This document shows, one piece after another, positions 7,827-18,726 of a stretch of 64,000 nt of DNA. The notes beneath the pieces are model-generated. The model searched no databases. It was not told the DNA's origin and saw only the letters and a program-made list of their open reading frames with translations. Made by a program: the position numbers and the translations under genes. Positions within the stretch are counted from its first letter, which is position 1. Every line of letters begins with the position of its first letter. The DNA is from Zhihengliuella halotolerans (lineage in GTDB: Bacteria; Actinomycetota; Actinomycetes; Actinomycetales; Micrococcaceae), in NCBI RefSeq assembly GCF_004217565.1, contig NZ_SHLA01000001.1, forward strand, positions 2,976,001 to 3,040,000. The letters run 5' to 3'.

Positions 7827-7846
7827 GTCTGAGTGTGCATCGAAGA

Positions 7847-7878
7847 GCGGAGCAGGGGCTACCCCTGCTCCGCTTTTC
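7847..7878 (+). terminator. Intrinsic terminator after trxA
   Basis: A perfect 12-bp GC-rich stem (7847-7858 with 7862-7873) has a 3-base loop and is followed by TTTTCT. It begins 20 bases after the trxA stop codon and is a textbook rho-independent terminator. Confidence 0.93.
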
Positions 7879-7911
7879 TATGCTCGCCGTTGTGGGCGCT
7901 GACAGCGTCGG

Positions 7912-8012
7912 TTCTCCACAGTTCTACAAGTTATCCACCGCTTGACGGTTGATAACTTGGAAATCCTTCAATGATCCTTCACGAGTTTCCACAGATTCAG
8001 CGATTACCCACA
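7912..8012. promoter_or_regulatory. Group of near-consensus DnaA boxes between trxA and parB
   Basis: Four 9-mers match the DnaA box TTWTNCACA at 8 of 9 positions: TTCTCCACA (7912), TTATCCACC (7931), GTTTCCACA (7985) and TTACCCACA (8004). They lie in the 320-base space between the two convergent genes trxA and parB, where neither gene needs a promoter. They could bind DnaA with low affinity. Nothing else is recognisable in this space except the flanking terminator and the parS palindrome. Confidence 0.45.
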
Positions 8013-8082: not shown

Positions 8083-8130
8083 AAGACCGGGGTTGGTTCG
8101 TTTCACGTGAAACGAACCAACCCCGGTCTT
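8083..8130. repeat. Perfect 48-bp palindrome with parS at its centre; likely parB terminator
   Basis: The 24 bases at 8083-8106 are the exact reverse complement of those at 8107-8130. The central 16 bases (8099-8114) are a parS site. The palindrome starts 16 bases beyond the parB stop. Read on the parB strand, it would form a 24-bp RNA stem followed by a short T-containing stretch, so it may also end parB transcription. As DNA it is a symmetric extension of the parS dyad far beyond the 16 bases that ParB needs. Confidence 0.85.
8099..8114. promoter_or_regulatory. parS site 1
   Basis: CGTTTCACGTGAAACG matches the bacterial parS consensus TGTTTCACGTGAAACA at 14 of 16 positions, with the inner 14 bases perfect. 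It lies downstream of parB in the convergent trxA-parB space, at the centre of the 48-bp palindrome. Confidence 0.92.
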
Positions 8131-8146: not shown

Positions 8147-9565
8147 CTACTTGTCACCGTCCGGCGAGATCAGAGCCATAATGCGATTCAGGTCGTCGAC
8201 GCTGGCGAACTCGATAGCGACCCGGCCCTTCTTTGCACCCAGGGAGATCTTGACGCTCGTGTCCAACCGATCCGAGAGCGAATTGGCGAGATAGTCCAAT
8301 CGCTCGTGCCGCGCGGTGCTACGTGGCTTAGTCTCCCGCCGCTTCTTCTCGACGCCCTCATTCATGGCGACCAGTTCCTCGGTCGCCCGAACGGACAGGC
8401 CCTCAGAGACGATCCGTTGTGCGAGGCGTTCGATCTCCGCCGGGTCCGCCAGAGCCAGCAATGCGCGCGCATGTCCCTGGCTGATAACACCCGCTGCTAC
8501 CCGTCGTTGGACGAGGGCTGGGAGCTTCATGAGCCGAATCGTGTTGGAGATCTGCGGACGGGAACGGCCGATTCGTTCGGACAGCTCTTCCTGGGTACAG
8601 CCGAACTCCCCAAGCAACTGCTGGTACGCCGCCGCCTCTTCGAGTGGATTGAGTTGGGAACGGTGCAGGTTCTCAAGGAGCGCATCACGAAGGAGATCTT
8701 CGTCCGTGGTCATACGGACGATGGCGGGAATCGTATCCAGTCCGGCCTGCTGCGTGGCACGCCAGCGGCGCTCGCCCATGACGAGTTCGTATTCGGCATC
8801 GCCGGACTCAGTGGAAGGACGTACCACGATCGGCTGCAGGAGGCCGATCTCCTTAATGGAATGTACCAGCTCGTCCATGTCCTCTTCATCGAAGACCTGA
8901 CGTGGCTGCTTGCGATTCGGGTGGATCGCCGCGACGGAAAGCTCGGCGAAGGTGGCCCCAGGTACAGGAACTAGCGACGGCTCGTCCTTGGATTCAGCTA
9001 CCGGTGACTCCGCTTCTACTGCGTCGGCAGCGGACGTAGCCGACCGCGATCGGGCCTGTCCGATAACATCTGGCATAGCGGGGCGTTTGCCGCCCCTCGA
9101 CGGCGCCGTTCGGGTCGACGACGACGATCCCTTGCTGCCGTCGTGATCCGCGTCGGCAGTGCGGCCGGGAGTGAAGAACATGTCAACTGGGCGCGCCTTG
9201 GTTCGCGCAACGGCGCCCGCTCTGCCCGCAGCCTTGGCAGGATCCGTCGTCGACACGCGCGCCTCGTCCTCCTCAGGGCTCCGAGAGGGCCGACGATCGG
9301 ATGTTGCGGTCGACGGGTCCTTCGAAGCCTCAGGCCGTCCTGCAGGACCGCGCACGCCCTCTGGTGCGGGTCCCTTCCCTGTGCCCGAGCTCGGCTTGGC
9401 GGCCTGCTTGGGCGCCCTCTGAGTCGACGTCTTGGTACTCGAGTCGGCCGGCCTGTTGTCCCCGCCCTCGTCCGCTCCGGGACCATCTTGTCCGGTGTCG
9501 GCGGTCGGCGAGCTAGAGATTAGTGCACCCAACCCGCGACCTAGGCCACGACGCTTCTCTGCCAT
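8147..9565 (-). CDS. parB: Chromosome-partitioning protein ParB
   Basis: This 472-residue CTP-dependent DNA clamp loads at parS sites and spreads to build the partition complex. The ParA-stimulating N-terminus is [16 protein letters not shown]. An unusually long, charged, Ser/Pro/Ala-rich linker of about 180 residues follows. The CTP/parS domain starts near residue 203 ([19 protein letters not shown]) and contains the GERRWRA motif near residue 267. The helix-turn-helix region has [20 protein letters not shown], and the C-terminus is a dimerisation domain. The frame is open to 9592, but the ATG at 9565 has GAGGGAG just upstream and lies about 25 bases from a predicted promoter start point. 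The gene is separated from parA by 2.2 kb and appears to have its own promoter. Confidence 0.96.
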
Positions 9566-9597
9566 GTTCTCCCTCTCAGTGACTCCAGGCACCGTAA

Positions 9598-9626
9598 GTC
9601 ATAGCGCCTCATCAGATTGAGTTCAA
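9598..9626 (-). promoter_or_regulatory. Predicted parB promoter
   Basis: On the minus strand a -35 element TTGAAC (9621-9626) and a -10 element TATGAC (9598-9603) are separated by exactly 17 bases. Transcription would start near 9590, leaving a leader of about 25 bases before the parB ATG at 9565. This fits independent transcription of parB, away from parA. Confidence 0.6.
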
Positions 9627-9817
9627 TCCTACTCGCGCTTTTGGGCAACTGCCTCCAACTGGTTAGCCGCGTCCCGTCGTAGACTATTCGCTTCAGTCGC
9701 GCTTCGTCGCAAGTCGACAACCCCTCATTCAGGAGGCAAGGACAGGCAGTGATTCCGACGTTTAGCGCCGACCTGGTGAATCGTCCCGTGGAGGCCTCCG
9801 GATCCATCCTTCGCGCC

Positions 9818-9833
9818 TGTTTCACGTGAAACC
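9818..9833. promoter_or_regulatory. parS site 2
   Basis: TGTTTCACGTGAAACC matches the parS consensus at 15 of 16 positions. It is the first site upstream of the parB promoter, about 190 bases from it. Confidence 0.93.
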
Positions 9834-9937
9834 ACAGTCGCAAGCAGCACACGTACCCGCGTCAGTAGCACCCGGCCTGCCGCCCGAACGTTCCGAACGC
9901 GAAACTCTACGAGCGGGGCCTCGTTTGCGAATGCAGT

Positions 9938-9953
9938 CGTTTCACGTGAAACA
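9938..9953. promoter_or_regulatory. parS site 3
   Basis: CGTTTCACGTGAAACA matches the parS consensus at 15 of 16 positions. It lies 120 bases from site 2. Confidence 0.93.
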
Positions 9954-10290
9954 GCAGAGCCGTCTCTAGTCTCTACCTAGATTCCACAAACCGCAGTCAC
10001 GCGTCACGTGGCCTAGACACCTGGCCGGCATAGACTCATAACTCGCTTCCACCGCGGTTACGAGAGTTGATGAGCGTGGAAGAGCCATCACGGGTGACAG
10101 GCCGGAACGTGAGAGGCTACTGGGCCACGTTGCTGTCGGGGCAATCTGAAAATGTAGATTCCACAACATAGTTCCATCAACAACCAGACCTGAACACCCG
10201 AGACGCCTCGCGCCACCTGTGGCGCACGTGGGTCGCTGGCCCCAACGACCATTGTCTTCGATCAAGCACAGTGCGCCGTTCCCCCATATA

Positions 10291-10306
10291 TGTTCCACGT
10301 GAAACG
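10291..10306. promoter_or_regulatory. parS site 4 (variant)
   Basis: TGTTCCACGTGAAACG matches the parS consensus at 14 of 16 positions. The left half has TTCC instead of TTTC, a variant shared with sites 6 and 7. Confidence 0.85.
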
Positions 10307-10340
10307 AGGCAGGCATGCACCAGAATGGCCGTCATCGCCA

Positions 10341-10365
10341 AGTGTTCTAAGAGCACGAGAACACT
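10341..10365. repeat. Inverted repeat in the parA-parB gap
   Basis: AGTGTTCT at 10341-10348 is the exact reverse complement of AGAACACT at 10358-10365, with a 9-base spacer. Function is unknown: it could be an operator or an RNA hairpin if the gap is transcribed. Confidence 0.4.
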
Positions 10366-10852
10366 CGCTACAACTCCGCGCCGCATCGCCTGACAGACCC
10401 GTTGGGTAATCCACTCCTTTGGTCCACAAGAAGCTCTCTGCGCCAAAGGCGTCAAACACAGTCAACGCGCATGTATCCCACTCACCAGCGCAAGGCGGCC
10501 GTTAGAGCTCGCCCACTTGACGGACTCTGCGCACCATGAGTCGAACTGCCTACCCGCCCCGCTCCCCTGCACATGCACCTTCCTTATGCGGAAGCTGCTC
10601 TGCTGGCCAGCTCCGATGAATGGACGTCCTGTCTGCTAGCGCTTCAGACGTGGCAGGCGAAGGAGAGGAGTTCCAGCGATGTGCGTTTGCTTGGCACCGC
10701 GTAAGCACCAAAGGCAACTGTGGACCTGCACTGTTCGTTGTGCACACAACATTGAAGTATGTTCCATTCCGTTGAGCCGGACTGAGCTCGCCGAAGCCAT
10801 ATTGGGGCACGCAGCTACTGGAAGTTTCTCCCGGGCATACAAGTTCCTGGTA

Positions 10853-10868
10853 CGTTTCACGTGAAACG
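10853..10868. promoter_or_regulatory. parS site 5
   Basis: CGTTTCACGTGAAACG matches the parS consensus at 14 of 16 positions, with the central 14 bases perfect. Its 16 bases are identical to those of site 1. Confidence 0.92.
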
Positions 10869-11001
10869 AGCAACGCAGTCATGTCTGCCGACATGACCCG
10901 AGACTCCCATACGTCAACAGCCTGGACATCGGCTTGATTCGAGATCCGCTATGTTCTCCGAGCCTCACCGATTAGCCAGTCCAACCTGACCCGGCCCGCC
11001 T

Positions 11002-11017
11002 TGTTCCACGTGAAACA
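11002..11017. promoter_or_regulatory. parS site 6 (variant)
   Basis: TGTTCCACGTGAAACA matches the parS consensus at 15 of 16 positions, with one change in the left half. It is identical to site 7. Confidence 0.9.
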
Positions 11018-11437
11018 TCTGGGCCGGTGAAGCTGAAACCCATGCCTCCTCATATAGCCCCTATCCCACGTGTCCAGCCGAGAGCAGACAGGGTGGCAAC
11101 ACCCACCGATCTTCTGCCACGCCAGATTCTCCACATCCGGAGATAGTACAGGCAGCCCACCACATCGAATCGGAGGATCTCCACCTGGAATCCCCACGCC
11201 ATGGGAGGCCCCGCCAGCAGGTAATGCCTAGCTCACAGACCTCCCAAACCTTGAACGGGTCCCAGGTTCAGGATCATGCACAAGCCCACTCCTCCCGCCA
11301 GACTCCCCCGCTGATCGACGTGCCCGGGGGCTCCGACGCCGCAGGGCCAGTCCGACAACGTTGACATCTGCCGGCACCAGTCTGCGATCGATAGCGCTCA
11401 CCGGGATACTGGGAGAACGGCATCCTGCCCCGTGTCG

Positions 11438-11453
11438 TGTTCCACGTGAAACA
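11438..11453. promoter_or_regulatory. parS site 7 (variant)
   Basis: TGTTCCACGTGAAACA matches the parS consensus at 15 of 16 positions and is identical to site 6. It lies about 200 bases from the parA terminator. Confidence 0.9.
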
Positions 11454-11657
11454 TCGCCTGGGCCAGTGCATCCATGTCGCGCAACACACGCCGTACCTTA
11501 AAGGCGACTCGGTCCGCTTCTGTTGGCAGGCCCGTTGCCGGACAAAGTTGAACGACAACGGTGCACTTGGAAGATGCACAGTACTGTCGGGCCTGGAGCT
11601 GCAACGAAGCGCGAGCCACCGTTGGAGTGAAACTCTGGAAAGTTGCATGGGTGGGGC

Positions 11658-11696
11658 AAAAGAAAGGGTCCGAAGCCCCTCAAGGACTTCGGACCC
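11658..11696 (-). terminator. Intrinsic terminator after parA
   Basis: On the minus strand a 10-bp stem (11687-11696 with 11666-11675) is followed by TTTCTTTT at 11658-11665. It lies 44 bases beyond the parA stop and should end the rsmG-parA transcript. This separates parA from parB transcriptionally. Confidence 0.87.
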
Positions 11697-11739
11697 GGTC
11701 CAGAAGCAACCGCGCCGACCAGCGGCAGTTGCATCGGCG

Positions 11740-12888
11740 CTACGTCTTCTTCGCGACACCCCTATCGGCAATCTCAGTTGAGGCTTCCATGTAGGAAAGG
11801 GCTCCTGTCGAACTGCGATCATACGTAATAACAGACTGTTGGTAGCTGGGTGCCTCGGAGATTCGAACGCTCCGCGGGATGACCGCCTCAAGCACCTCGT
11901 TGGGGAAGTGGTTTCTGACTTCCTGGGCTACCTGTGCTGCAAGGTTGGTCCGTCCGTCATACATCGTCAGCAGGATAGTCGAGACGACGAGGTCAGCGTT
12001 CAAGTGCTTCTGAATCATCTCGATGTTCTTCAGAAGTTGGCTAAGCCCCTCGAGCGCGTAGTACTCGCACTGAATCGGGATGAGTACCTCACGCGCGGCA
12101 ACGAACGCGTTAACGGTCAAGAGCCCCAGACTCGGCGGGCAGTCAATGAAGACATAGTCCAGTCGGTCCATGCCTTCGGCGTCACGATACGTCGCGTACT
12201 GGTCCAACGCACGGCGTAGCCGCTGTTCGCGCGCAACGAGCGAGACCAATTCGATTTCGGCCCCGGCAAGATCGATGGTGGCGGGAGCAACTACCAGGTT
12301 GTCCAGATCCGGACAGGGAGCGACAACGTCCTGCAACGGCAGATCGTTGATGAGCACATCGTAGATGCTGTCGATCTCCGAGTGGTGCTCAATACCAAGC
12401 GCTGTCGACGCATTGCCCTGGGGATCGATGTCGACTACGAGAACGTTGAGCCCGGATTGGGCTAGCGCTGCAGCAACATTCACAGTCGTCGTCGTCTTTC
12501 CGACGCCGCCCTTCTGGTTGCTGATTGTGAAGTAGCGCGTACGGTCAGGCTTCGGCAGGCCCCGCCCCTTGAGCCGCTCTCGGCGCATGTTCTCATTGAC
12601 CAGCTGACTAGCCAATGGGGTGCTGTCGTCCATGGTGTCCATAATGTTCCGAACCCGTGCCTCTAGTTGTTGGTGAACCGGCTCGGTCGCCACCGAATTG
12701 CCGATTTCCGAAAGCGTTTCACGTGAAACAGGTGATGACGTCGACTCTGAAACGTTTACTGGTTGATTTTGCGCATTGTGCCGAACGGCTCCGTTTCCGC
12801 TCTGAAATTCTCGTGCCTGCCCCGAACTGCTCCTACCGGCCGAGAACAACGCGGCAAGCGAGGGCACCCGACGTTCAGTGCCCCTCAC
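11740..12888 (-). CDS. parA: Chromosome-partitioning ATPase ParA
   Basis: A 382-residue deviant Walker ATPase that drives origin segregation together with ParB. The P-loop is NQKGGVGKTTTTVN near residue 126. The A' motif is VLVVDIDPQGNAST, and the Walker B region is DYVFIDCPPSLGLLT. About 115 residues precede the ATPase fold and include PVSRETLSE, whose codons contain a parS site, as in M. tuberculosis ParA. The start used is the GTG at 12888, 58 bases after rsmG; it lacks a strong ribosome-binding site, and a shorter form starting at the GTG at 12693 or later is possible. It shares a transcript with rsmG rather than parB. Confidence 0.93.
   Translation of the reverse strand: MRGTERRVPSLAALFSAGRSSSGQAREFQSGNGAVRHNAQNQPVNVSESTSSPVSRETLSEIGNSVATEPVHQQLEARVRNIMDTMDDSTPLASQLVNENMRRERLKGRGLPKPDRTRYFTISNQKGGVGKTTTTVNVAAALAQSGLNVLVVDIDPQGNASTALGIEHHSEIDSIYDVLINDLPLQDVVAPCPDLDNLVVAPATIDLAGAEIELVSLVAREQRLRRALDQYATYRDAEGMDRLDYVFIDCPPSLGLLTVNAFVAAREVLIPIQCEYYALEGLSQLLKNIEMIQKHLNADLVVSTILLTMYDGRTNLAAQVAQEVRNHFPNEVLEAVIPRSVRISEAPSYQQSVITYDRSSTGALSYMEASTEIADRGVAKKT
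12715..12730. promoter_or_regulatory. parS site 8, inside parA
   Basis: CGTTTCACGTGAAACA matches the parS consensus at 15 of 16 positions. It lies within the 5' part of parA and encodes part of the VSRET peptide that recurs in ParA N-termini of other actinobacteria. Confidence 0.92.
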
Positions 12889-12946
12889 TTGTCCGAACTC
12901 ATTCGGATCAAACTGAAGAAAATCATCACAGGTACAGACTATCGGT

Positions 12947-13591
12947 TCAAGCCGAGCCTACCCGGACACGAACGACTGTTGTCGGTTCCTCCAGGACGTT
13001 CTCCCCTGCCGTCAGAATATCCGTGGCTAGAGCGCCACGCTTCCGCAGGACCTTACGCGCCTTCTCAATCTCTTCGGCCGCGCTACGGCCCTTCAAAGCG
13101 AGCAGTTCTCCGCGTCCGTGCAGCAGCGGCAGAGTGATATCGGCCAGCTTGCTGAGCGCAGAGACTGCACGGGCTGTCACCACATCCACGTCGACTTCAT
13201 CGAAGAACAGTTCCGAGCGACCACGAAGAACCCTGATGTTCTCCAAGCCGAGATCCACGATCACCTCACCCAGCCAAGTGCATCGACGCTCCAGCGGTTC
13301 AATCAGCGTGATATCGAGGTCGGGCCGGGCCAAAGCGAATGTCAGGCCGGGCAGCCCGGCGCCACTGCCGACATCGGCGACTGCGGCACCCTGAGGAATC
13401 AGCTCAGTAACCACCGCGCAATTGAGCACGTGCCGGCCCCAGAGGCGCGGAACTTCTCGCGGACCGAGGAGCCCTCGCTCGATACCGGAGGTGGCGAGAT
13501 GCTCGACGTAACGTTCGGTCAGTGCGAGGCGTTCCCCGAAGACCTCCAACGCAGCACCGCGTTCGGCGATGGTCAATGCGTGCTCTTCCAC
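12947..13591 (-). CDS. rsmG: 16S rRNA (guanine527-N7)-methyltransferase
   Basis: This 214-residue SAM-dependent methyltransferase (GidB) modifies G527 of 16S rRNA. The family sequences RLWGRHVLNCAVV and VADVGSGAGLPGLTFALARPD (SAM-binding glycine motif, about residues 75-90) are clear, followed by LIEPLERRCTWL. The length is typical. It precedes parA by 58 bases on the same strand. A strong terminator between jag and rsmG indicates that rsmG-parA form their own transcription unit. Confidence 0.95.
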   Translation of the reverse strand: MEEHALTIAERGAALEVFGERLALTERYVEHLATSGIERGLLGPREVPRLWGRHVLNCAVVTELIPQGAAVADVGSGAGLPGLTFALARPDLDITLIEPLERRCTWLGEVIVDLGLENIRVLRGRSELFFDEVDVDVVTARAVSALSKLADITLPLLHGRGELLALKGRSAAEEIEKARKVLRKRGALATDILTAGENVLEEPTTVVRVRVGSA

Positions 13592-13640
13592 TTCTGTCCC
13601 TTCCGGAAGCCGGCGGGCGCTCGCCCGGAATCTGAATTCA

Positions 13641-13671
13641 AAAATCGGGCGGTCCCGAGGACCGCCCGATT
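13641..13671 (-). terminator. Intrinsic terminator between jag and rsmG
   Basis: A perfect 13-bp stem (13659-13671 with 13643-13655) with a 3-base loop is followed on the minus strand by a short T run. It lies just after the jag stop and closes the ribosomal-protein/yidC/jag operon. Confidence 0.92.
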
Positions 13672-13684
13672 CATGTGCTGAGAA

Positions 13685-14209
13685 CTAAACAACCGCCGAG
13701 ACGACGACATGGCGGCCGGAACCTTCTCCGTCTGATTCGCTGTGCAGGCCGAGATCAGCGACGACGTCGTGTACCTGCTTGCGCTCGTAAGCGCTCATGG
13801 GCTCGAGCGTGACACGTTCGCCAGTCTCCTTCACCTGTTCGGCCGCATCTGCCGCAATCTTCTGCAGTTGAGCGGACCGCCCCTTACGGTACTCGAGGAT
13901 GTCCAGGATCAAACGTGAGCGATGTCCGGTCTGTGTGAGCACCGCCAGCCGTGTGAGCTCCTGGAGTGCATCCAGGCCGGCACCATCCTGGCCGACGAGT
14001 TCGCGCAACGCCGACTGGTCGCCCTCATCCTGGACGATCGAGATGTAGGTGCGCCCCTTGCGAATCTCGATATCGATGTCGCCATCGATGTCCGCGATGT
14101 CCAGCAATTCCTCGAGGTAATCAGCGGCGATGTCGCCTTCTTCTTCGAGTCTCGATGGCGGAATCTCTTCAGCCTCGACGGATTCTGCTGGTGCCGGTAT
14201 CTCGCTCAT
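13685..14209 (-). CDS. jag: RNA-binding protein Jag/KhpB (KH and R3H domains)
   Basis: A 174-residue protein with an acidic N-terminus, a KH-like region (residues about 25-95, with LVGQDGAGLDALQELTRLAV holding the GxxG-type loop) and a C-terminal R3H domain. The R3H signature follows LEPMSAYERKQVHDVVAD. KhpB proteins bind RNA and affect cell elongation and division in Gram-positive bacteria. It starts two bases after the yidC stop, in the conserved rpmH-rnpA-yidD-yidC-jag order. The N-terminal Jag_N domain of firmicutes is missing, as is usual in actinobacteria. Confidence 0.92.
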   Translation of the reverse strand: MSEIPAPAESVEAEEIPPSRLEEEGDIAADYLEELLDIADIDGDIDIEIRKGRTYISIVQDEGDQSALRELVGQDGAGLDALQELTRLAVLTQTGHRSRLILDILEYRKGRSAQLQKIAADAAEQVKETGERVTLEPMSAYERKQVHDVVADLGLHSESDGEGSGRHVVVSAVV

Positions 14210-14211
14210 GG

Positions 14212-15183
14212 CTACTTCTTCCTGCGGTTCTTGCGCTGCGGCTGCGAACGCTGGACCTTCGGGGGTTCCGGAACCTCTGGTGCCTCAGCCTCAGCCTCAG
14301 CCTTCTTCTTCTTTTCATGAACCGGCGGCAGCCCCTTGGCGGCGCGGCGCGCATTGAGCTCGCGCTCAGCCTGAGACCCCGGCGTCGGGTTGCGGCGAAT
14401 GATGTAGTACTGCTGGGCCAGTGTCCACAAGTTGGTGGCGGTCCAGTAGATCAGCACGCCGATCGGGAAGTTGATGCCGCCGATACCGAAGACGAGCGGC
14501 AGGATGTACAGCATCATCTTCTGCTGCTGCATGAAGGGGCCCTCGAGGGCTTCCTTGGTCATGTTCTTCGTCATGATCTGCTTCTGCGTAATGAACTGCG
14601 AAGCGACCATCGCGAGGATCATGACGACGGAGATCACGATGACGGCGATCTGCGGCGAACCCGAGTTGAACGTGCCCAGGAACGTTTGGGACAGGCCTGC
14701 GCCGAAGATCGAGGAGTCGGCGAAGTGGTGGGTCTGGTTGACCGTCAGCTGCCCGATGCCCTCGTTGTTCTCCGACGCTCCGCGGGCGTTGTTCAGCGAG
14801 TGGAACAGCGCGAAGAAGAAAGGCATCTGGATGAGCAGCGGCAGACAGGACGAAAGCGGGTTCGTCTTGTGGCGCTTGAACAGTTCGCGCTGCTCGGCCA
14901 GCATGGCCTGCTGCGAGAGCTGGTCCTTCTTGCCCTTGTACTTGGCCTGGAGCTTGCGCAGGTCAGGCTGCAGCGCCTGCATGGCGCGCTGCGCCTTGAT
15001 CTGCTTGACGAAGACCGGAATCAGCGCGGCACGAATGAGCAACACCAGCAGCACGATGGACAACGTCCAGTTCCAGCCGGAAGTCTCGTCAAGGCCGATG
15101 GCCGTGAGGATCTCGTGGCAGATGCGCAAGATCCAGGTGACGACCCATTGGAACGGCCACAAGATCGTGTCAAAGAAACCCAT
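14212..15183 (-). CDS. yidC: Membrane protein insertase YidC
   Basis: This 323-residue YidC/Oxa1 family protein inserts membrane proteins, with or without SecYEG. The first helix region is followed by the conserved hydrophobic segment WTLSIVLLVLLIRAALIPVF, where the arginine lies in the hydrophilic groove. The family core LQALQPD-like stretch is MQALQPDLRKLQAKYKGKK, and PLLIQMPFFFALFHSL marks the next helices. The last third is hydrophilic, with a basic, Glu/Lys-rich tail that could touch the ribosome. It starts 6 bases after yidD. Confidence 0.95.
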   Translation of the reverse strand: MGFFDTILWPFQWVVTWILRICHEILTAIGLDETSGWNWTLSIVLLVLLIRAALIPVFVKQIKAQRAMQALQPDLRKLQAKYKGKKDQLSQQAMLAEQRELFKRHKTNPLSSCLPLLIQMPFFFALFHSLNNARGASENNEGIGQLTVNQTHHFADSSIFGAGLSQTFLGTFNSGSPQIAVIVISVVMILAMVASQFITQKQIMTKNMTKEALEGPFMQQQKMMLYILPLVFGIGGINFPIGVLIYWTATNLWTLAQQYYIIRRNPTPGSQAERELNARRAAKGLPPVHEKKKKAEAEAEAPEVPEPPKVQRSQPQRKNRRKK

Positions 15184-15189
15184 TACCCG

Positions 15190-15579
15190 TTATGCTCCTC
15201 GTGCCGCGTCCGCGGCGTGCTCGTCATCGTCCGCTGGAATCGGCGGATGATTCATCACCATGATCTGCGGCAGTTTGCCATCGGGCCAAATCCGTCGGCC
15301 CTCCGGAACGTGATCGATGCCCCCGTGACTGAACGGATTGCACCGAAAAATGCGCTTTGTCGCCAGGTATACGCCCTTGATGGCCCCGTGCACGGTGACA
15401 GCCTCGAGAGCGTATGCCGAGCAACTCGGGAAGTACTTGCAGACGTCACCATAGATGGGTGAGATCAGTTTGCGGTAGACCAGCAGGAACCCGATGATCA
15501 GATTCCGCGGTAGGTCCACAATGAAGCGTACGACGGCGTCGCGCCGGGTCCGTGCCTCAGTCACCGTGTCCGTCCGCAT
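15190..15579 (-). CDS. yidD: Membrane protein insertion efficiency factor YidD
   Basis: A 129-residue member of the YidD family, defined by YRKLISPIYGDVCKYFPSCS, the following AYALEAV, and RIFRCNPFSHGGIDHVP. The conserved cysteines (VCKYFPSCS and FRCNPF) are all present. YidD aids membrane insertion by YidC at the cytoplasmic face. The ATG at 15579 lies inside the end of rnpA, a 23-base overlap; a shorter GTG start is possible. The tail beyond the core is acidic and histidine-containing, and not conserved. Confidence 0.92.
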   Translation of the reverse strand: MRTDTVTEARTRRDAVVRFIVDLPRNLIIGFLLVYRKLISPIYGDVCKYFPSCSAYALEAVTVHGAIKGVYLATKRIFRCNPFSHGGIDHVPEGRRIWPDGKLPQIMVMNHPPIPADDDEHAADAARGA

Positions 15580-15946
15580 CTGCCGGAACGCGCCGGCGAT
15601 TCTTGTGGTGCGCGGACTTCGCAGCCGAACGCATCAATGAATGTGCTTCCTCGTTCAGTTCGTCCCACTGCGCCGCCGAAGCAGCGGGCAGAGCCCGCAT
15701 GACAACGTCGAAACCGGTGGGGAACTCGTCGAGGAGCGAAGCGCTGATCGCGCGCAGTCTCCTCTTAACGAGGTTGCGGTGCACCGCGTTCCCGACGGCC
15801 TTGGACACGATGAACCCGAAGCGCGTCGGCGCCGAATCCCGAAAACGTGCATATAACACGACGTTCCGGCGCCCAACACGGGCACCGGAACGTACAGTGG
15901 TTGAGTAGTCCCTCGCGGAACGCACCCGGTGCACCTTGGGCAACAT
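15557..15946 (-). CDS. rnpA: Ribonuclease P protein component
   Basis: A small basic protein of 129 residues that assists the RNase P RNA in maturing tRNA 5' ends. The RNR-type motif appears as NAVHRNLVKRRLRA (about residues 54-67), where the common form is RNRIKRRLRE. The N-terminal MLPKVHRVRSARDYSTTVRS matches the family's substrate-leader binding region. It lies 61 bases after rpmH and overlaps yidD. Confidence 0.94.
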   Translation of the reverse strand: MLPKVHRVRSARDYSTTVRSGARVGRRNVVLYARFRDSAPTRFGFIVSKAVGNAVHRNLVKRRLRAISASLLDEFPTGFDVVMRALPAASAAQWDELNEEAHSLMRSAAKSAHHKNRRRVPADADGHGD

Positions 15947-16007
15947 GGCGATGAGGCCTATCTGTTGGCAGGGAACAGCGAGATGCTCACGAAGGGGCCT
16001 GCTCTAT

Positions 16008-16145
16008 TTAGGCAGAAAGTTCGGTGCGGCCCTTGGTGCGGCGGGCAGCCAGGATGGCGCGGCCGGCGCGGGTCCGCATACGCAGACGGAAGCCGTGCTT
16101 CTTGGCACGACGGCGGTTATTCGGCTGAAAAGTCCGCTTGCTCAC
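16008..16145 (-). CDS. rpmH: 50S ribosomal protein L34
   Basis: A 45-residue protein reading [18 protein letters not shown] at its N-terminus and ending GRTELSA. This is the complete, highly conserved L34 of the large ribosomal subunit. The start is a GTG at 16143-16145 with GGAGTT upstream on the minus strand. Its position next to dnaA, transcribed away from it, is universal in bacteria with this origin layout. Confidence 0.97.
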
Positions 16146-16774
16146 AGTAGTAACTCCAAGACGATCATTTGATGCGCCTTAACCCGTTGCTACAGGGGGA
16201 AGAACAGGCTGACGCTCGATATTCACGTGCCGCTTCCGAACTCCTCGCCGGCGACTCCAACCAGCCCCAGACGAGGGCCGGCGCCGATCTGAACAACAGA
16301 TCTGCACGGTAGTCGCGGCCTGAGGTTCCCTCAAAAGCGGACACACAGGACTAAACAACGATAGGGGTCTACCGCACTATCAGTCAAATGGGAAGACGAG
16401 TGGCGTCCAGCACAGCCGTCCTGGAACGCACGGGACATTGTCGTCAACGGACGTCAGAAGCAGGTTCCCACAGATCTCCACAACTTGTGAACTCACAATC
16501 CACACCTGTGGACGACGGGTAGCGCGAACGCCCCGAACGGCAGCGCCACAATGACCCGATCATCCCTGGAATCACAAGGGTGTAAGCAGTTCTGTGGACA
16601 ACGCGACGACGACCGTGCGCTGGGGCTCAAGTTATCCACCGCCTGTGAATAAATCTGTGGATAGTCGGCTACAGTTGATCTCCCGACGTTCCGTTCCGGC
16701 CCGTCGGGAGACGGCACGGCCCACAGCGGTCGAAGACCAGCACGGCGGCTCCTCGCGAAGGGAAATCACACAAC
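16146..16774. promoter_or_regulatory. rpmH-dnaA intergenic region with DnaA boxes
   Basis: This 629-base divergent region must hold the promoters of rpmH and dnaA. It carries several DnaA-box-like 9-mers. TGTGGACAA at 16593-16601 is a perfect TTGTCCACA on the minus strand, and TGTGAATAA at 16644-16652 is a perfect TTATTCACA. TTATCCACC (16632) and TGTGGATAG (16656) match at 8 of 9. Three boxes crowd into 16632-16664. Further weak copies lie around 16464-16515. They are suited to autoregulation of dnaA or to forming part of the origin. I could not assign individual promoters with confidence. Confidence 0.7.
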
Positions 16775-18283
16775 GTGACCACGGACGCAAACAACGATCT
16801 CGGTTCCCAGTGGCGTCGAGTCGTAGACCTGATGAAGGACAACACCGAAGTCAGGCCGCGTCAGCGGGCATTCGTCGAATTAGCACAGCCCCAGGGACTG
16901 ATCGGGACCACACTCTTGGTCGCCGTTCCCAACGACCTCACGCGCAACGTCATGCAGACACAGCTGATGGCCCCGCTCGACGCGGCGCTGCGCCAAGTCT
17001 TCCAAGATGACATCCGCGTTGCTTTCAGCGTCGATACGAATCTCGAGCCCGAGACCTCCGCCGAGGAACTCCCGACGCCCCAGCCCGTTGAGATCGCCGA
17101 GCAGGCCTCCTCCGAGCCGGCCATCTCGAACGCCGCCGACCAGCACGAAGTCTTGCGCAGCGTCGCCCGTGCCCGCTCCGACAATGAGCACGGCCCCCGC
17201 AACAAGCCGGTTCCGGTGCCCACGCCGCCGTCGAACTCGCAGGAGATCGGTCGGCTCAACCCCAAGTACATTTTCGACACGTTCGTGATCGGCGCCTCCA
17301 ACCGCTTCGCGCACGCGGCCGCAGCTGCAGTCGCCGAGGGCCCGGCCAAGGCCTACAACCCGCTGTTCATCTACGGCGACTCGGGGCTGGGCAAGACACA
17401 CCTGTTGCACGCGATCGGACACTACGCACGGCACCTGTTCAACGGCATCCGCGTCCGCTACGTGAACTCGGAGGAGTTCACGAACGACTTCATCAACTCC
17501 ATCCGCGACGACGAGGGTACGAGCTTCAAACAGACGTACCGCAACGTCGACATTCTGTTAATCGACGACATCCAGTTCCTGGCGAACAAAGACGCGACGC
17601 AGGAGGAGTTCTTCCACACCTTCAACGCGTTGTACAACGACAACAAGCAGGTCGTCATCACCTCCGACCTGCCGCCCAAGCAGCTCGCAGGGTTCGAAGA
17701 TCGCATGCGCTCGCGCTTCGAGTGGGGCCTGATCACCGACATCCAGCCGCCGGAACTCGAAACCCGCATCGCGATCCTTCGCAAGAAGGCCGAGGCCGAA
17801 GGGCTCCGCGCGCCTGACGACGTGATGGAGTACATCGCCTCCAAGATCTCTACCAACATCCGCGAGCTCGAAGGCGCTCTGATCCGCGTCACCGCGTTCG
17901 CTTCGTTGAACAATCAGGCCGTGGACATGGCGCTGGCCGAGACGGTTCTCAAGGACCTGATCACGGATGAAGACGCCCAGGAAATCACGTCCCAAGCGAT
18001 CATCGCGCAAACTGCCGAGTACTTCGGACTGTCGATCGAAGAGCTCAACAGCAAATCGAGGACCCGCACACTCGTGACGGCCCGTCAGATCGCAATGTAT
18101 CTGCTGCGTGAACTCACGGACCTGTCGCTGCCGAAGATCGGTGCCGAGCTCGGTGGGCGCGACCACACCACGGTCATCCACGCCGACCGCAAGATTCGCG
18201 ACCTCATGGCCGAACGACGCTCGGTATTCAACCAGGTCACCGAGCTGACGAACCGAATCAAGCAGCAGCAGCGCAAGGGATAG
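16775..18283 (+). CDS. dnaA: Chromosomal replication initiator DnaA
   Basis: This 502-residue initiator binds DnaA boxes and melts oriC. Domain I occupies about residues 1-90, and a linker rich in P, E and A extends to about 160. The AAA+ domain begins at [19 protein letters not shown], with Walker [10 protein letters not shown] near residue 199 and Walker [10 protein letters not shown] near 263. The domain IV signature [14 protein letters not shown] is near 461, where DNA contact occurs. The GTG at 16775 follows GAAGGGA. All functional motifs are intact. Confidence 0.98.
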
Positions 18284-18726
18284 CAGCAGCAATTTTCGCC
18301 GCTGCCGCCGCAGGCGGAGGCCACGAAAATCACACCTGTGGATAACTTTGTGGACAGTTAAGTGGACGACACCTCAAACCTGCGCATAAGTCCAGGGGGT
18401 CCTGTGGATCCCTTAAACGACGCGGATTTTTGTCCACCGCTATCCCCTGCCCAGACGAGAGACCGCCCACAGCTTGTGAACAAGCAGATTCGGTGAACTG
18501 GCACGGCGCAGGGTGGTTATCCACAGTTTCCACAACCGTTGTTAACACTACTAACCCTTTAAACCCCTCATCCAGATAACAAGACTCCATCCCGTGACTC
18601 GACGATCGAACGGCACCAACCAGAAGCTTGGGAGCACAGCGACGACCGATAACGGTCGACCCGCTCTTCGGGCTAAGCTTGCACCGAATACTTGTCACTA
18701 CCTTGCTGTGAAAGGCGGATCGCTAC
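18284..18726 (+). other. Putative oriC (dnaA-dnaN intergenic region)
   Basis: This 443-base gap has two perfect DnaA boxes: TGTGGATAA at 18337-18345 (minus orientation) and TTATCCACA at 18517-18525. Near matches lie at 18349, 18430 and 18526. Next to the right-hand boxes is an AT-rich stretch (18537-18571) containing GTTGTTAACACTACTAACCC, a good candidate unwinding element. A hairpin with ATTTTCG/CGAAAAT arms (18292-18330) follows dnaA directly. In mycobacteria and Streptomyces the origin is in this same gap. Genes on the left run mostly leftward and those on the right rightward, as expected if forks start here. Confidence 0.82.
18291..18331 (+). terminator. Hairpin after dnaA
   Basis: Arms ATTTTCG and CGAAAAT enclose an inner GC-rich stem-loop immediately after the dnaA stop codon. 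It has no clear T run after it, so termination is possible but not certain. Confidence 0.4.

Follow-up and report, generated by a model that had tools for sequence, protein, structure and literature searches.

Kilobases without genes are rare in bacterial genomes, and the window analysed here (the whole stretch of 64,000 nucleotides from Zhihengliuella halotolerans) holds such an interval between parA and parB, with six parS sites inside it. One of the ten parS sites of Corynebacterium glutamicum is enough for normal growth (PMC7083940). Since another actinobacterium can thus manage with a single parS, the locus raises the question of whether a bacterial centromere needs a transcription-poor loading zone of set length and site number.

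The par locus and its parS sites

The genes, the spacer and the parS sites are as follows (positions in the window).

8147-9565, minus strand: parB, 472 aa, ATG start at 9565, from the list of open reading frames and Pfam
9566-11739: parA-parB spacer, 2,174 bp, GC 0.589, six parS sites, non-coding
11740-12888, minus strand: parA, frame from GTG 12888 (candidate start) to a stop that ends at 11740, AAA_31 Walker ATPase
16775-18283: dnaA, about 4-9 kb away from the parS sites
8099-8114: parS CGTTTCACGTGAAACG, after parB, at the centre of a 48-bp palindrome
9818-9833: parS TGTTTCACGTGAAACC, one mismatch, in the spacer
9938-9953: parS CGTTTCACGTGAAACA, one mismatch, in the spacer
10291-10306: parS TGTTCCACGTGAAACG, two mismatches, in the spacer
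10853-10868: parS CGTTTCACGTGAAACG, two mismatches, symmetric, in the spacer
11002-11017: parS TGTTCCACGTGAAACA, one mismatch, in the spacer
11438-11453: parS TGTTCCACGTGAAACA, one mismatch, in the spacer
12715-12730: parS CGTTTCACGTGAAACA, within the 5' part of the parA frame, where it reads VSRETL

The initial annotation had placed the start of parB, the stop of parA, the gap between them and its six parS sites correctly; the two flanking sites (8099 and 12715) were absent from it. Adjacent sites in the gap are 120-562 bp apart. The window contains eight parS sites at up to three mismatches, compared with 0.09 expected from 100 shuffles. Across the 3.58-Mb genome, eight of the nine matches with up to two mismatches lie within the 4.6 kb of the par locus. 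With up to three mismatches the whole contig has ten matches, eight of them in the same 4.6 kb, and the reversed motif has two. The remaining two genome matches, at 2761318 (two mismatches) and 2870635 (three mismatches), carry their changes inside the motif. The genome-wide motif scan found no comparable parS cluster elsewhere on the chromosome, and the earlier description of the locus as a compact centromere holds. A parS is found in the same part of parA in 46 of 63 loci of the family, and half-site variants show no directional bias among the sites of these 63 loci (66 versus 56).

From the N- to the C-terminus, ParB consists of a GLGRGL motif, a low-complexity linker, ParB_N, HTH_ParB and ParB_C; PF02195, PF17762 and PF23552 all exceed their Pfam cut-offs, so that the ParB_N, HTH and C-terminal dimer domains are present. 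The linker (8951-9517), between the GLGRGL motif and ParB_N, has about 190 residues, 89% of which are G, P, A, S, T, D, E, R or K. ParB length, which ranges from 335 to 667 aa across the 63 family loci, shows no clear link with gap state (p 0.16) or site number (rho 0.23, p 0.07). In ParA, AAA_31 covers residues 119-300 and none of the seven Pfam matches is to an HTH family, i.e. there is no type Ia DNA-binding domain. The par locus lies on a single contig of 3.58 Mb with dnaA and gidB in its neighbourhood and is thus not plasmid-borne. In plasmid par loci, type Ia has a ParA with an N-terminal HTH, type Ib has a small ParB, and the centromeres flank the operon. Here, ParA has no HTH family and ParB is 472 aa long with full domains; a Walker ParA without an HTH, a three-domain ParB and origin-proximal 16-bp parS sites are those of chromosomal ParABS. 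The term 'plasmid-like', which had been applied to the centromere, is an analogy only, given the chromosomal kind of both proteins and the position near dnaA.

The statement that the gap holds no credible gene was borne out. The longest open reading frames wholly within it reach at most 116 aa (scan of frames of at least 60 aa), and a codon-position GC test classes none of those of at least 100 aa in the window's gap as coding-like. None of seven frames in or overlapping the gap has a Pfam match over a cut-off (a 205-aa frame overlapping parA has an E value of 0.019, short of its cut-off), five of these seven have no NCBIfam match, and an Rfam scan found nothing in the gap. Four weak Rfam matches to microRNA families, under the gathering scores, were taken as chance; three lie over the palindrome at 8083-8130 and one at 7833-7887. 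Repeats in the gap are essentially the parS sites plus short chance matches, with no other long repeats. A decayed gene, a hidden ORF or an RNA in the gap is not supported by the ORF, Pfam, NCBIfam, GC-test and Rfam results.

The spacer in the genus, the family and the order

Five genomes of the genus were compared, including that of the window (the others are G001-G004). All five have a gap of 2.0-2.3 kb with six to eight parS sites: with the window first, the gaps are 2,174, 2,343, 2,181, 2,019 and 2,196 bp and the sites number 6, 7, 6, 8 and 7. The second gap measures 2,322 bp if an earlier start codon is used. Each genome has 8-12 matches at up to two mismatches.

In G002, the nearest relative, the order of the six sites is unchanged and 89 of 96 parS bases are identical, versus 1,025 of 1,998 positions (51%) in the gap outside parS (Fisher p 1e-18). 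Identity at four-fold degenerate sites is 0.647 in parA and 0.665 in parB. The retention of parS, in a gap that is otherwise less similar than four-fold sites, argues for selection on parS and little elsewhere. For the other three genomes the gap identity is 0.39-0.41 and that of four-fold sites 0.25-0.36, values that both look saturated, with the gap value inflated by the alignment. When the five-genome alignment is ranked in windows of 20 columns, the top four are parS and all six parS sites fall in the top eight; the remaining two lie near 11713 and 10525, outside parS, and the parB leader ranks next. Judged by these alignments, the spacer sequence drifts while the parS sites stay.

The arrangement is also not the peculiarity of one chromosome that it had been taken for, as comparison of spacing and parS sites finds the spacer in all five genomes of the genus and in ten other genera. 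The family sample comprised 65 genomes (60 plus the five of the genus) fetched from 119 with a ParB_C match, with at least one per genus and contiguous assemblies preferred. Of these, 63 loci in 32 genera were scored, leaving out L122 (ParA outside the stretch) and L160 (contig end). Some par loci of this family (f1) are 100% identical to records of Kocuria sp. cx-455, Haematomicrobium sanguinis and Nesterenkonia sandarakina, which we take to be Micrococcaceae. With a long gap defined as at least 450 bp between parA and parB, a parS-bearing long gap is found in 29 of 63 loci and 11 of 32 genera, spanning 464-4,627 bp with 2-10 sites; the other 34 loci have a short gap, and two genera (g3 and g6) hold both states. 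Every scored long gap bears parS, and the 53,864 bp of long gaps contain 179 motif matches versus none for the reversed motif. Spacer length and site number are weakly linked in the long-gap loci (r 0.39).

In the short-gap loci, parS sites occur on the other side of parB: all 34 have at least one there, and in 25 the number is three or higher. The count after parB is 1-9 in short-gap versus 0-4 in long-gap loci (Mann-Whitney p 5e-9, with related loci treated as independent). The interval is often gene-poor, as in L145 (2,433 bp between parB and trxA without a coding-like ORF of 100 aa) and G065 (6,112 bp after parB with ten sites and no coding-like ORF of 150 aa). In other short-gap loci (L107, L111, L113, L130, L147, L148 and L152) a coding-like ORF, about 390-475 aa long, precedes trxA. 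Long ORFs also lie no more than 2 kb away from parB in L128 and L144, and L170 (G112) contains a coding-like one of 732 aa. The parB side is thus gene-poor in many genera but not always. Between parA and parB, a 102-141-aa ORF passes the weak coding-like GC test in 10 of 29 long gaps. The 6,773-bp parA-parB interval of L169 (G046; 11607-18380) has 11 parS sites and a coding-like 420-aa ORF, and may contain a gene. Not every gap is therefore likely to be gene-free. Within 24 genomes, 176 of 197 sites (up to two mismatches) lie inside the fetched par-locus stretch, the main exceptions being G027 (3 of 11 local) and G036 (7 of 12 local).

A tree was built from ParA, the ParB core and GidB by a quick method (74 rows, with 11 outgroup loci entered as short-gap). 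The long or short gap state changes seven times on it, compared with a shuffle mean of 23, and at least five changes are forced by starred branches; the count is approximate, because the genes are linked to the trait, the tree is a gene tree and two long outgroup branches were flagged. Gains and losses are indistinguishable on this tree.

In the order, 193 of 198 genomes matched, and the 20 loci fetched from among the matches listed, from 19 other families, have 0-2 parS sites between parA and the ParB core. After parB, the f6 locus carries 9 sites and the f11 locus (L181) 11. Another dense array outside the family is that of L053 (a Dermabacteraceae record), with 15 parS sites after parB. A further set of 80 named loci includes L082, without ParB, and L072, with an impossible ParB end. 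For 25 of the 80 (L072 included) the ParB start was unrecognised and the distance from parA stop to parB stop was used (at most 1,327 bp); among the 54 with a recognised start, Nesterenkonia (892 bp) is the only one with a gap of at least 450 bp. In the loci sampled, the arrangement looks confined to the family. A literature search on parS in Arthrobacter, Micrococcales, Micrococcus luteus and Micrococcaceae found no title or abstract on such an arrangement; the survey of Livny et al. 2007 fell outside its scope and may mention these genera, and the available part of PMC4255298 mentions ParABS only in general terms.

Hairpins, candidate promoters and DnaA-box-like nonamers

Three further features bear on transcription.

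11666-11696, minus strand: terminator-like hairpin after parA, 14-bp stem, 3-nt loop, T-rich tail, fold -28.4 kcal/mol
9626-9631, minus strand: TANNNT hexamer (TAGGAT), candidate parB -10, read by eye from a loose motif
8083-8130: perfect 48-bp palindrome with parS 8099 at its centre, between the convergent parB and trxA

The terminator that had been assigned to parA is real at the sequence level, being recovered by both a terminator scan and folding. A strong hairpin (score of at least 30 in our own scoring) follows parA in four of the five genus genomes, in 9 of 29 long-gap loci and in 7 of 10 loci with gaps of 188-441 bp, and in none of 23 scored loci with gaps of up to 101 bp; less sequence was searched in these 23, and one further locus was too short to score. 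As parA has a terminator-like hairpin of its own, parA and parB are probably not one simple operon. The initial annotation held that its signals show the two genes to be no longer one operon. The 2,174-bp gap and the strong hairpin make this probable, but 'show' is too strong. Uncoupling of parA and parB is thus likely in the window locus and is not general in the family. The parB promoter proposed at 9598-9626 fared less well: its hexamers (TTGAAC-17-TATGAC) are present, but a consensus scan returned no promoter there and the -10 is not conserved in the genus. The TANNNT hexamer lies at -63 to -66 from the parB ATG in all five genus genomes, again as read by eye with a loose motif.

The palindrome beyond parB would form a very stable RNA hairpin on both strands (-43.7 kcal/mol). 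It is not in the terminator scan list and its tails are not U-runs; we consider it a putative bidirectional terminator built on parS. To compare such elements across the 63 loci, arms were called paired when at least six of the next eight base pairs flanking a parS (up to two mismatches) were complementary. The comparison set every parS site in the first 80 bp after parB against every other site, because picking sites with paired arms would build in the covariation result. Paired arms occur at 29 of the 44 sites in this 80-bp stretch and at 9 of the 388 elsewhere (Fisher p 2e-26, with related loci treated as independent), and the 29 sites have 27 different arm octamers. The parS-cored hairpin is common rather than universal, being found in 29 of 63 loci, 18 of 32 genera and four of the five genus genomes; it is commoner at short-gap loci (23 of 34) than at long-gap loci (6 of 29). 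Similar palindromes surround parS in other families, for example in Streptomyces griseoaurantiacus (arm 24). Among the papers listed by a literature search, no title or abstract describes a terminator-like hairpin with a parS core. Such an element would join ParB loading and transcription termination in one.

The long gaps contain 34 DnaA-box-like nonamers (up to one mismatch), whereas the reversed nonamers occur 11 times and five first-order random sets average 17.4; the window's own gap has three, scattered. Clusters of at least three within 250 bp occur in the gap (genera g11 and g15) or after parB (g1, g7, g10, g14 and g20) in 12 of 63 loci, compared with two for reversed nonamers in all stretches, and clusters also lie upstream of parA, on the origin side. 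The parS stretch of g7, g10 and g20 contains two such clusters, separated by about 400 bp. Individual examples are L109, L110, L114, L131 and L132 after parB, and L115, L116, L123 and L124 in the parA-parB gap. The window has a cluster between trxA and parB (about 7912-8012), as does G003; G001, G002 and G004 do not. The clusters point to a further origin-related role of the parS stretches in some genera, possibly as a second origin module or a DnaA-titration site, and an account by parS alone would therefore be incomplete.

Interpretation and comparison with known systems

The parS-bearing spacer between parA and parB is real, non-random and conserved, and is a family-level variant of a known system. 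The reading that best fits the sequence data, to which we assign a probability of about 0.8, is an ordinary origin-proximal chromosomal ParABS centromere, the ParB-loading zone of which would be a spacer of kilobase scale, poor in genes and under constraint mainly at the parS sites. ParB is a clamp-forming CTPase (PMC12462528). Its sliding clamps would load at the gap sites and at both flanking ones, fill the spacer and spread into parA and parB. In Caulobacter, each site supports ParB spreading over up to 2 kb, on which transcription may have an effect (PMC5815017); in C. glutamicum, ParB binding is strongest within 2 kb of parS (PMC7083940). ParA would move the resulting ParB complex, and condensin would be loaded there. 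Transcription into the loading zone would be restricted by the terminator of parA at one end and by the parS-cored hairpin past parB, and selection would retain the parS sites, their number and a rough spacer length but hardly any other sequence. A dedicated loading platform between the genes, as initially proposed, is a reasonable description of a gene-free, multi-site stretch; its supposed singularity does not stand in view of the genus and family comparisons, and dense chromosomal parS clusters are known, as in Myxococcus xanthus (PMC3899335). ParB, by spreading, may control both genes.

Some observations count against this loading-zone reading. The sufficiency of one parS in C. glutamicum leaves many sites and a long spacer unaccounted for, spacer length varies from 464 to 4,627 bp among long-gap loci, and most of these loci (all but the nine noted above) lack a strong parA hairpin. 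After the break-up of the operon, the gap might have grown as spare DNA and gathered parS sites, which would be harmless near the origin. Its nearly unconstrained sequence, the single-site sufficiency just mentioned and the tolerance in Caulobacter of extra parS near the native cluster (PMC5815017) would all agree with such neutral expansion. Against a drifting background, however, parS is strongly conserved, the length is constant at 2.0-2.3 kb in all five species of the genus, and the long-gap state has changed at least five times on the tree with parS in every scored long gap; we consider neutral expansion quite improbable. The length of the gap for a bacterial intergenic region, together with the two well conserved windows near 11713 and 10525 that are not parS, could instead reflect a decayed gene, a mobile insertion or a hidden gene for a small protein or RNA. 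This is the least probable of the explanations and very unlikely, as no family match exceeds a cut-off, the window's gap has no coding-like ORF and no long repeats beyond parS, and the six parS sites are all among the best eight windows.

Somewhat more credible than these two, though still unlikely, is a chiefly regulatory role, in which ParB at the gap sites would repress or insulate parB and parA as feedback on the ParB level and the centromere role would be secondary. Precedents exist: ParB at the intergenic parS3 and parS4 of Pseudomonas aeruginosa represses adjacent promoters (PMC7022226), and a parS overlaps a promoter in Mycobacterium bovis BCG (PMC2346475). In the window, a terminator-like hairpin lies between parA and parB, and parS 9818 is 187 bp upstream of the TANNNT hexamer (9631). 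Six to eight sites over 2 kb nevertheless exceed the needs of an operator, other genera have most of their sites after parB rather than upstream, and no parS overlaps the candidate promoter.

The loading-zone reading can be extended, tentatively and with more doubt than confidence, to a 'regional' centromere on the chromosomes of this family: a kilobase-scale gene-poor domain in which length and parS number rather than sequence would be selected, from which terminators, one of them built on parS, would exclude transcription, which may lie on either side of parB and have moved several times, and in which DnaA-box clusters in some genera would tie segregation to replication control. A drifting spacer with fixed parS sites, found on either side of parB across genera, makes the loading-zone question testable.

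Among known systems, the locus resembles the chromosomal ParABS (Soj/Spo0J-type) of C. glutamicum in the kind of proteins, the parS consensus and several origin-proximal, mostly intergenic sites. C. glutamicum has its ten parS sites in 35 kb, nine of them intergenic, 73 kb from oriC (PMC7083940), whereas the window has eight in 4.6 kb, six of them between parA and parB. Site numbers can be higher, with 22.8 parS on average in streptomycetes (PMC8743542). The dense multi-site array a few kilobases from the par genes is like that of M. xanthus, in which 22 parS sites occupy 3 kb and parA lies about 4 kb downstream of them (PMC3899335, PMC3778016); the M. xanthus array is upstream of an intact parAB operon, whereas that of the window splits the genes and is less dense. 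The mycobacterial gidB-parA-parB region likewise has a parS within parA and promoters upstream of each gene (PMC2346475), separate promoters being putative in the window, but its parA and parB form an operon, with an overlap or 59 nucleotides between them and two parS in all (PMC2346475). The compactness of the centromere and its position at the par genes are shared with plasmid par loci of types Ia and Ib. In these the centromere flanks the operon, lying downstream in the case of parS and sopC (PMC2346475), whereas that of the window lies between the genes.
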